From positions 1 to 46,688 of the forward strand of contig JAQTVB010000007.1 in NCBI GenBank assembly GCA_028707005.1: a DNA stretch of 46,688 nucleotides. The letters run 5' to 3'. The position numbers and the translations under genes were made by a program. Shown in pieces: positions 1,506 through 4,340 of this stretch. The stretch's first letter is position 1, and each line of letters begins with the position of its first letter. The stretch comes from Patescibacteria group bacterium (lineage in GTDB: Bacteria; Patescibacteriota; Patescibacteriia; Patescibacteriales; GWC2-42-12). The notes below the pieces were generated by a model. The model saw only the letters and a list, made by a program, of their open reading frames with translations. It made no database searches and was not told where the DNA came from.

Positions 1506-1904
1506 TTATAAAAAAATTACCCTGATATTAGGGTAATTTTCGTTATGCTCCGAACGCTGAACGAAATCCGAACTTTTTTTAGCGAAAATCCGAACGCTGA
1601 ATTTTGAAAAACTTTCGCTTAAATCCTTGCGAGAGTCAGTTTCTTTGAGTTGATTGTATAAATTAACCAAATTGTGTGCCTTTTCTCCTCGCTTATCAAA
1701 TTTTATATTTTTAATACGATGCACTGTTTTTAAATATTTCTCTATCGCTGAGTTAGATAAAATAGCTCCTTGAACTAATAGTCCTCTTCGTATGAGGGTG
1801 CGAGCAGCGAGGTAATCATTGTCGGCTAAGCTAAGCCAAGCGGTTATATCGCGTGCTTGATTTTGATATGCCGTATCTTTGATAATGGGATCAGTTTTAT
1901 TCAT
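1506..1904 (-). CDS. HEPN-domain protein (putative RNase-type), divergent from the lexA-MTase gene
   Basis: 132 aa; WLSLADNDYLAARTLIRRGLLVQGAILSNSAIEKYLKTVH HEPN-like pattern plus RGEKAH (Rx4H) motif; the C-terminal ~30 aa read through repeats and a terminator hairpin. Confidence 0.65.
   Translation of the reverse strand: MNKTDPIIKDTAYQNQARDITAWLSLADNDYLAARTLIRRGLLVQGAILSNSAIEKYLKTVHRIKNIKFDKRGEKAHNLVNLYNQLKETDSRKDLSESFSKFSVRIFAKKSSDFVQRSEHNENYPNIRVIFL
1511..1540 (-). terminator. Intrinsic terminator hairpin overlapping the 3' end of the HEPN ORF
   Basis: AAAATTACCCT gatatt AGGGTAATTTT; U-tract on minus strand. Confidence 0.6.
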
Positions 1905-1928: not shown

Positions 1929-1957
1929 TTGACTTCGGTAAATTTTCGGTATATACT
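1929..1957 (+). promoter_or_regulatory. Candidate sigma70 promoter of the lexA-MTase gene with direct-repeat operator in spacer
   Basis: TTGACT (1929-1934), 17 bp, TATACT (1952-1957); TTCGGTA direct repeats at 1934-1940 and 1945-1951 (11-bp period). Confidence 0.6.
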
Positions 1958-1968
1958 ATAAATATAAC

Positions 1969-3426
1969 ATGTGGATAAATAATGTCAATAATATGCAAAC
2001 TCTAACAAAGAGACAAAAACAGATTTTAGATTTTATTGGGGGATATATTAAAAAGCGCAACATATCCCCTACTTATAAAGAAATAAAGAAACGCTTTAGA
2101 CTTTCCGCGCTTTCTACTGTTCACCAACATGTTGAAGCATTGATAAATAAGAATTACCTATTTAAAAATGACAACTCTTCAAGAGGAATAGAAATTAAAA
2201 AAACTGTTGATGATTTTATACAAATCCCACTCGAAGGAACTATTGCCGCAGGACAACCGATAGAAGCGATTGAAGAAAAAGAAACTATCGCGATACCAAA
2301 AAGCTCACTACCGAGAAGCGGCAATATTTATGCATTAAAAGTGGCCGGTGATAGTATGATTGAAGAGAATATTAATGATGGTGATATAATTTTAGTAAAA
2401 AAACAAAATACTGCTGTTAACGGTCAGAAAGTCGTAGCTCTTATTGATAACCAGGAAGCAACTTTAAAACAATTTTATAAGGAAAAAAAATACATTAGAT
2501 TGCAACCTGCTAATAAAAATTTTGAACCAATTATCATAAAGAGAGATAAAGAATTTTCAATCCAAGGTGTAGTTCTCGATGTAATAAAGAATGAAAAAAA
2601 TGAATTATTACATATAACAGACCTAGAAAAAAAACAAAAAAAATTGCCTCTTAATAGAATTATTTGCGGAGATGCAGTTGATATTATGCAATCAATACCT
2701 GTCGACTCCATAGATTTAGTAGTCACTTCACCTCCATATGACAATCTAAGAAGCTATAATGGATACTCGTTTGATTTTGAAGGTATGGCAAAAGGTTTGT
2801 TCAGGGTTATGAAAAAAGGCGGAGTTATAGTATGGGTTGTCGGAGACCAAACGATTAAGGGCGATGAAACAGGTACATCTTTTAGACAAGCTCTATATTT
2901 CAAGCGAATAGGATTTAATCTTTTTGATACAATGATATACCTAAAAACTCCGCGAGGTGCCGTTGGTAATAATAATACATACTGGCAGGCTTTTGAATAT
3001 ATGTTTATATTAAGTAAGGGTACGCCAAAAACAATAAACCTTATTAAAGATAGGGAAAATAAAGATGAACGTGATGGTGATAACGGCACAAAACGACTAC
3101 ACGATGGTACGCTATTAAAGCAAAGGAGGGCTGGATATTCTAAGTATGGAAGAAGAACGAATGTTTGGGAATATCTTATAGGAAGGGGCCATTCTTCGAG
3201 TGATAGTATTGCTTATAAGCATCCTGCTATATTCCCGGAAAAATTGGTGCGAGATCATATTATAAGTTGGACAACTCCTGGCGATGTGGTATTAGACCCT
3301 ATGTGTGGCAGTGGAACTACATGCAAAATCGCTAAACTTAATAAAAGAAATTTTATTGGAATTGATATTTCTTCTGAATATTGTAAAATAGCTGAAGAAA
3401 GATTAAAACAAAAATCTCTATTTTAA
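1969..3426 (+). CDS. LexA repressor (HTH + S24 autoprotease) fused to beta-class DNA N4/N6 methyltransferase
   Basis: 485 aa single ORF. LexA winged HTH (ISPTYKEIKKRFRLSALSTVHQHVEAL), IAAGQP cleavage site (A94-G95), KVAGDSM Ser129, ATLK Lys167; then TSPPY (aa 253-257) and DPMCGSGTT (from aa 443). A start at the internal ATG 1993 is also plausible. Confidence 0.9.
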   Translation: MWINNVNNMQTLTKRQKQILDFIGGYIKKRNISPTYKEIKKRFRLSALSTVHQHVEALINKNYLFKNDNSSRGIEIKKTVDDFIQIPLEGTIAAGQPIEAIEEKETIAIPKSSLPRSGNIYALKVAGDSMIEENINDGDIILVKKQNTAVNGQKVVALIDNQEATLKQFYKEKKYIRLQPANKNFEPIIIKRDKEFSIQGVVLDVIKNEKNELLHITDLEKKQKKLPLNRIICGDAVDIMQSIPVDSIDLVVTSPPYDNLRSYNGYSFDFEGMAKGLFRVMKKGGVIVWVVGDQTIKGDETGTSFRQALYFKRIGFNLFDTMIYLKTPRGAVGNNNTYWQAFEYMFILSKGTPKTINLIKDRENKDERDGDNGTKRLHDGTLLKQRRAGYSKYGRRTNVWEYLIGRGHSSSDSIAYKHPAIFPEKLVRDHIISWTTPGDVVLDPMCGSGTTCKIAKLNKRNFIGIDISSEYCKIAEERLKQKSLF

Positions 3427-3867
3427 AGTACCCCGTAGCCATTTTATTGCCCGTTTTAATATAATCTCATTATCCTCCATCATTCCCATACTATTATTAC
3501 ACATTCTGCAAATCCAACCCCTTATCTCGCCAGTACTGTGGAAGTGATCTAACACAACATCATTTTTATATTGCCTGATTATTGTTCTATCGCAAATAGG
3601 GCAATGAAAGGGTTTACCTATAGGAGGCTGTGGGCTTGTTTTTTCAAATTCCTCTCTTGCTTTTTGGGGCATAGGTCGTTTCCACTTGCGACATTCTCTG
3701 CATTCACCCCTTCTTGATACTTTACCACGAATCGTTTTTTGATTCTTTTCAAATTCAAAAATGCTTTTCCGTTGTTGACACCTTCGGCATATTTTTGTTT
3801 CATTAAAACAGGATTCGCAAAAGCTTTTCCGAGTTGCTTTATTACGATTACATTCAATACATTTCAT
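3418..3867 (-). CDS. Endonuclease VII-like HNH nuclease with CxxC zinc ribbons; candidate restriction endonuclease
   Basis: 149 aa; CIEC/CESC, CRRC/CREC, CPIC...VVLDHFHSTGEIRGWICRMCNNSMG as in Endonuclease_7 family; convergent with and overlapping the MTase 3' end by 9 bp. Confidence 0.82.
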   Translation of the reverse strand: MKCIECNRNKATRKSFCESCFNETKICRRCQQRKSIFEFEKNQKTIRGKVSRRGECRECRKWKRPMPQKAREEFEKTSPQPPIGKPFHCPICDRTIIRQYKNDVVLDHFHSTGEIRGWICRMCNNSMGMMEDNEIILKRAIKWLRGTLK

Positions 3868-3869
3868 AT

Positions 3870-4088
3870 TTATTTTAGAAAAAAATTAATATCTTTTTTA
3901 TAAATTTCAGCAAACTTCCTTAACTGAACTACATCGATTTTGCGCTGACCAGATTCAATTTTCGATAAATAGGATTGAGAACGACCCAATTTTTTAGCTA
4001 CTTCAATTTGATTAAGACCCACTTCAAGACGGGCTTTTATTAATTTCTGGACTATAATTTTATGTTCCTTTGAATATAAATTGCTCAT
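3870..4088 (-). CDS. XRE-family HTH regulator (C-protein-like)
   Basis: 72 aa; ARLEVGLNQIEVAKKLGRSQSYLSKIESGQRKIDVVQLRKFAEIY; 2 bp upstream of the HNH ORF. Confidence 0.88.
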   Translation of the reverse strand: MSNLYSKEHKIIVQKLIKARLEVGLNQIEVAKKLGRSQSYLSKIESGQRKIDVVQLRKFAEIYKKDINFFLK

Positions 4089-4111
4089 ATTATTGCTATG
4101 TATCTATTTAT

Positions 4112-4140
4112 ATGATATATTACAAAATGTAATATGACAA
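4112..4140 (-). promoter_or_regulatory. Candidate promoter of the XRE-HNH operon with C-box-like palindrome in the spacer
   Basis: On minus strand TTGTCA - 17 bp - TATCAT; the perfect dyad ATATTACA-AAA-TGTAATAT (4117-4135) covers the spacer. Confidence 0.6.
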
Positions 4141-4340
4141 AATGGAATACAAGAAAAAAGAAAAGTTTACTTTTGACTTAAAATAAAGTTCGAGCCGATA
4201 TTTTTTACAGGTTCTTTGGCAGTTTTTTTAAAGCCGGGCTTTGCCCGCGAGGAAATTATTGCTTTTAAAAGCTTTATATAAAATCGTTTAAAACCTTTTT
4301 TTAAATTCAGTTCGAGCTTCGGTATAAAATCGGAGCAAAT

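Follow-up and report, generated by a model that had tools for sequence, protein, structure and literature searches.

What does a complete LexA repressor do when it is joined, in one polypeptide, to a DNA methyltransferase? The question is raised by a gene in the window analyzed here, which is the whole of contig C11 (46,688 nucleotides) of the 1.08-Mb assembly of a Patescibacteria group bacterium (genome G000). A preliminary description had read this gene (Table 1) as a single uninterrupted 485-codon frame comprising a complete LexA and a beta-class amino-methyltransferase (MTase); the open reading frame and the domain calls confirm this, and the residue coordinates given there for Ala94-Gly95, Ser129, and Lys167 are all exact. 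In profile searches, the LexA equivalog model TIGR00498 scores 179 bits (cut-off 111) over residues 9–208. The LexA-family features are a winged helix-turn-helix (HTH) and an S24 peptidase, both above their curated cut-offs (PF01726 and PF00717), together with the Ala-Gly site and the Ser/Lys dyad. PF01555 (N6_N4_Mtase) scores 148 bits over residues 248–477, with TSPPY at residues 253–257 and DPMCGSGTT at 443–451. An AlphaFold model (mean pLDDT 80; pTM 0.53, which makes the relative placement of the domains unreliable) has two folded domains with a disordered linker between them at 209–223, and its Foldseek matches are LexA and beta-class MTases including M.MboIIA, CcrM, and a rotifer N4C MTase. 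Translation likely starts at ATG 1993 (Met9) rather than at ATG 1969, because most homologs start at the equivalent of residues 9–11, the −10 element of the promoter ends at 1957, and residues 1–9 are unstructured in the model.

Table 1. Features of the LexA-MTase locus (window coordinates).
Feature	Position	Strand	Basis or remark
Sigma70-type promoter, TTGACT - 17 bp - TATACT	1929–1957	+	10/12 consensus positions
Predicted operator of LexA-M: TTCGGT-N5-TTCGGT(A), a direct repeat with period 11 in the promoter spacer	1934–1951	+	Sequence
DnaA-box-like 9-mer TGTGGATAA	1970–1978	+	Conserved near fusion promoters; function inferred
LexA-methyltransferase fusion gene	1969–3426	+	Uninterrupted ORF, 485 aa; likely start ATG 1993
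LexA winged-HTH DNA-binding domain (residues 9–73)	1993–2187	+	PF01726; specificity residue Gln53 at 2125–2127
Ala94-Gly95 self-cleavage site	2248–2253	+	Predicted; 100% kept in 72 fusions
LexA/S24 peptidase domain	2233–2574	+	PF00717; Ser129 at 2353–2355, Lys167 at 2467–2469
Disordered linker (residues 209–223)	2593–2637	+	Structure model; LexA/MTase exchange joint in relatives
Beta-class amino-methyltransferase	2650–3411	+	Motif IV TSPPY 2725–2739; motif I DPMCGSGTT 3295–3321
Convergent HNH endonuclease, predicted cognate R	3418–3867	−	Endonuclease_7; PADLOC Type II REase; 9-bp overlap with the 3′ end of M
Xre-type regulator of 72 aa, putative C (controller) protein	3870–4088	−	Directly upstream of R
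C-box-like repeats in the C-R promoter	4116–4149	−	Sequence only

The fusion is not peculiar to this genome. Fusions confirmed by translation are present in 19 of 381 patescibacterial genomes, no two of them from one family. A wider scan covered one genome per species (85,462 species) with an alignment of fused LexA domains as the query; in 73 of the best 80 loci, which are the most similar ones and not a random sample, the ORF that contains LexA is extended C-terminally by 157 aa or more. The preliminary description had proposed searching for this domain combination and its neighborhoods, and the outcome is a recurrent fusion family in a restriction-modification (R-M) context, both of which it had missed. 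Most record titles among the best 80 loci are Parcubacteria or other Patescibacteria, and five bins among the matches listed are labeled as lying outside Patescibacteria (L074, L087, L119, L131, and L133). Misbinning or recent transfer is possible for L087, because its DNA is 88% identical to that of L088, a Parcubacteria bin from the same dataset. No fusion record at 80% coverage was found among 72,556 plasmids or 50,697 phages, and one fusion (L147) was recognized across two IMG/VR scans; a phage or plasmid origin was rejected on these grounds. The MTase domain by itself has many phage relatives.

In a tree of LexA domains, built by a quick method and with many open forks, the fusions group together (SH-aLRT 98) and are separated from 22 stand-alone genes, one of which is the host lexA. 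Nested inside this group are ten LexA copies that stand alone or are truncated, and the kinds of MTase are scattered within it. The fusion is thus not an ortholog of housekeeping lexA, being in a separate clade and having a half-site that differs from that of the genome's own lexA; stand-alone lexA and recA are both present in the genome. Four stand-alone LexA genes in the fusion clade (L078, L135, L138, and L139) have the same operator type without an MTase, and are possibly MTase losses or a separate accessory LexA group. The genome also encodes a second LexA-like protein of 218 aa with a GDSM motif and an altered cleavage region, VVGDSSCGHF; its gene lies directly upstream of a separate DPPY-type MTase gene, making an unfused LexA-like and MTase pair (contig C3, locus L066, 1934–3467, minus strand). 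The preliminary description knew of no enzyme joining a full LexA to an MTase, and this holds for the literature searched (LexA with methyltransferase, R-M, or CPR; mostly open-access), in which no such fusion was described; LexA goes unmentioned in a 2025 review of R-M biology. The LexA-MTase fusion is real and recurrent, and it is apparently undescribed.

The gene context identifies the fused MTase as the modification enzyme (M) of a Type II R-M cassette, in which LexA-M is accompanied by an HNH endonuclease gene in convergent orientation and by an Xre gene resembling those of C proteins. Linkage of the MTase gene to a restriction endonuclease (REase) gene is given by the match of the HNH protein to an REase_II model, and M and R have been co-inherited with those of L101 (86 and 89% identity). 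The downstream neighbor is convergent in 59 of 71 fusion loci, usually overlapping the fusion by a few bases, and representative neighbors match Type II REases of the TaqI, BglII, MunI, MamI, HNH, and other families, while several match no known REase model. The neighbor is not convergent in the remaining 12 of 71 loci, and some of these neighbors are second MTases. A second gene in the same direction follows the fusion in L102, L114, L123, and L126, and in the two that were scanned it is an MTase (D12 in L102, N6_N4 in L114), which suggests two-MTase systems at these four loci. A small Xre gene lies beyond the downstream neighbor in 32 loci, as in the window, where its position upstream of R and the promoter repeats point to C-protein control at the level of sequence. 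A LexA operator was not found at the C-R promoter of the window or of nearly all other loci, and an operator at that position was rejected. We infer the binding, cleavage, methylation, and cognate R/M specificity of the cassette from its sequence.

The MTases found fused belong to N6_N4_Mtase, C5 DNA_methylase, MethyltransfD12, and MT-A70; the window enzyme (PF01555) is not of the m5C class, to which a few relatives (PF00145) belong. Of 256 fusion pairs whose LexA parts are at least 70% identical, 162 have MTases less than 35% identical, and identity between fusions falls at the domain joint near residue 210. The LexA lineage is an exchangeable regulatory chassis, with at least four MTase families and many unrelated restriction enzymes alongside. 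The window cassette itself looks recombinant from its sequence relationships: promoter and HTH, from 1926, are closest to L067 (87% DNA identity), and the stretch from about 2220–2241, next to the codons of the cleavage site, to 4107–4135 is closest to L101, L112, and L122. Because the two halves have different closest relatives, promoter, operator, and HTH appear to travel as one module and MTase, REase, and C as another. The first 4 kb of the window have a GC content of 33–35%, vs. about 45% over most of the remainder, and this region terminates near a tRNA-Asn gene, consistent with an acquired island. A minus-strand gene at 470–1438 encodes a 322-aa protein with a methyltransferase-like Gly-rich motif (VVEVGPGREG) and without a match in Pfam, NCBIfam, PADLOC, or PHROG.

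What does the fused LexA bind? Upstream of the fusions there are direct repeats with an 11-bp period, typically between −35 and −10, with half-sites of the types TTCGGT, TTCTAT, TTCGAT, and CTCGGG. A perfect 7-of-7 repeat at period 11 occurs in 45 of 71 non-redundant fusion upstream regions vs. 9 of 228 controls, taken from in front of non-fusion ORFs at these loci; among periods of 8 to 14, only 11 is conspicuous upstream of the fusions. The operator motif pattern is found in 59 of 71 vs. 2 of 228; this pattern was derived from the same data, but neither the period test nor the controls were tuned to it. About one sixth of the fusion promoters are without an operator recognizable by the pattern, and at some loci the box is reversed and situated downstream of the forward −10. 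An inverted-repeat operator was considered and rejected: the dyad enrichment is mainly A+T-rich, and the clear signal is the period-11 direct repeat.

The half-site can be predicted from one residue of the recognition region, which stands between two histidines and is Gln53 in the window: Gln, Glu, or Asp goes with CGG, and Phe, His, or Tyr with CTA or CGA, in all 62 cases in which both are readable. When changes of residue and half-site are mapped onto a tree of the sequence C-terminal to the HTH, seven are independent and lie on supported branches, and every one is concordant (sign test, p = 0.0156). This covariation is the chief indication of binding, and self-repression by LexA-M at its own promoter is a well-supported prediction.

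Other signals surround the promoter. The 9-mer TGTGGATAA is found in the 160 bp upstream of 44 of 71 fusions vs. 4 of 228 controls; its orientation is nearly always the same, and it mostly precedes the operator by 19–26 bp, whereas the window copy is placed differently, past the −10. The 9-mer is also found near the host lexA promoter (G000, contig C6, 4687–4695). Hypothetically, such a DnaA box could couple expression of M to replication. A divergent promoter-like sequence (1988–1961, minus strand) overlaps the fusion promoter and is conserved in 41 of 71 fusion upstream regions, and promoter competition as in Ecl18kI is possible. Upstream neighbors point away from the fusion in 52 of 57 cases, although they are mostly genes unrelated to one another; in the window the divergent neighbor (1506–1904, minus strand) is a HEPN-domain protein (PF05168, marginally above the cut-off).

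All of 72 divergent fusions (100%) keep Ala94, Gly95, Ser129, and Lys167, whereas variation is seen at other positions of LexA. When 92 fusions were counted with a regular expression, five appeared to be exceptions, but all five keep the residues on reading. The invariance of the cleavage dipeptide and the Ser/Lys dyad argues that self-cleavage is under selection, and it also makes plausible the earlier proposal that the fusion is damage-responsive. We infer that cleavage of LexA-M would depend on RecA, which the genome encodes.

These observations lead to a mechanism that we regard as probable: LexA-M represses itself, and cleavage triggered by RecA filaments derepresses the M gene of a Type II R-M system. 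Uncleaved LexA-M would sit on the direct-repeat operator in its own promoter, as the covariation supports. RecA filaments would arise from damage, from phage attack, or from self-restriction by the cognate endonuclease at times of insufficient methylation. The LexA part would then cleave itself at Ala94-Gly95, to judge from its invariant catalytic residues, and the HTH would leave the MTase. M would be derepressed and the freed peptidase-MTase part (residues 95–485) may still methylate, so that protective methylation would go up. For R, a separate delay would come from the C-like Xre gene together with its own predicted boxes. In a new cell M would be fully on before C and R accumulate, since no LexA-M is present there. 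A cleaved M that is unstable or inactive could reverse the outcome. A broader formulation, which we put forward more tentatively, is that the whole patescibacterial chassis works in this way: M, the antitoxin of the system, senses damage, self-restriction leads through RecA to cleavage, and induction of M lasts as long as the genome lacks protection, with the DnaA box adding replication coupling.

The strongest competitor is a constitutive self-repressor, in which the LexA part only binds DNA and dimerizes, limiting M, and cleavage has no role. The own-promoter operator and the helix covariation require nothing beyond the HTH, and known HTH-MTase repressors act without cleavage (PMC12707154). 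This is nevertheless unlikely: an unused dipeptide and Ser/Lys dyad should drift, yet they are invariant across the 72 divergent fusions.

Damage-induced cleavage could also serve the opposite end. LexA fragments are unstable in E. coli, and a similarly short-lived or less active MTase fragment would let methylation fall until the endonuclease kills the cell as an abortive defense; R-M systems can indeed behave as toxin-antitoxin pairs (PMC3874152). Such self-killing is quite improbable, because in the window an operator was found at the M promoter but not at the C-R promoter, so that cleavage should raise synthesis of M, and because the MTase is modeled as a separately folding unit behind a flexible linker.

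Still less survives of the epigenetic switch over target genes put forward in the preliminary description, in which LexA-M would repress a regulon and damage would redistribute or re-dose methylation genome-wide. The complete LexA anatomy invites this reading, yet we consider it very improbable. Across the 1.08-Mb genome, the operator TTCGGTN5TTCGGTA has a single exact copy, at the promoter of the fusion itself. The host LexA is a separate protein with a different half-site (TTCGT), and the fusion falls outside its clade. An SOS regulon under the host LexA was looked for and rejected: in the genome, a promoter-like box is seen for lexA alone, and the remaining matches resemble ATTCGTA simple repeats or are without a fitting gene. 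Finally, an assembly or frame artefact that joined lexA to a methylase gene has a negligible probability, and a chimera was rejected, because homologous intact fusions with conserved gene order recur across many independent genomes and the stand-alone lexA of this genome sits elsewhere.

The fusion is thus a variant of the repressor-fused methyltransferases of the EcoRII/SsoII/Ecl18kI type and very probably not a genome-wide epigenetic switch. M.EcoRII, M.SsoII, and M.Ecl18kI are m5C enzymes with a small HTH and without a protease. Like them, the fusion has an N-terminal DNA-binding domain and a predicted operator in the M promoter; unlike them, it has a complete LexA with an intact self-cleavage apparatus and extends over at least four MTase families. 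In that group the N-terminal domain represses the enzyme's own promoter (PMC12707154, PMC3874152). With LexA proper (TIGR00498) the fusion shares the winged HTH, the Ala-Gly site, the Ser/Lys dyad, and a period-11 direct-repeat box at its own promoter; the Caulobacter LexA box, GTTCN7GTTC, is also a direct repeat with period 11 (PMC9578287). It differs from the SOS repressor in its covalent attachment to an MTase, its separate clade, and its own operator variant, in a genome that retains a normal lexA. As in C-controlled Type II systems of the PvuII and BamHI type, R follows a small Xre/C-like gene with its own promoter repeats, but M would be under its own LexA operator and not under C control. 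In restriction alleviation of EcoKI, a Type I system, the host is shielded from its own restriction under DNA damage or at unmethylated sites (PMC4231737, PMC11109961). The logic would be similar here; there, the host protease ClpXP destroys R, whereas the fusion would induce M through self-cleavage in a Type II setting. SOS induction upon R-M imbalance and self-repression by HTH-fused MTases are both recorded, separately (PMC3874152).

In the ultra-small Patescibacteria (CPR), the protective MTase of many R-M systems thus appears to be built on a complete self-cleaving LexA seated on its own promoter, and DNA damage, including self-inflicted cutting, should automatically raise protective methylation. 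Type II systems must hold methylation ahead of restriction, and the R-M reviews consulted give no direct molecular answer to how cells sense that they are losing this race. Because the fusion family is large, naturally shuffled over MTase and REase families, and equipped with a readable helix-to-operator code, it is readily testable, and it also offers a sequence-based view of LexA operators in Patescibacteria. An MTase carrying its own damage-triggered, self-cleaving repressor would, if true, be a direct homeostat.
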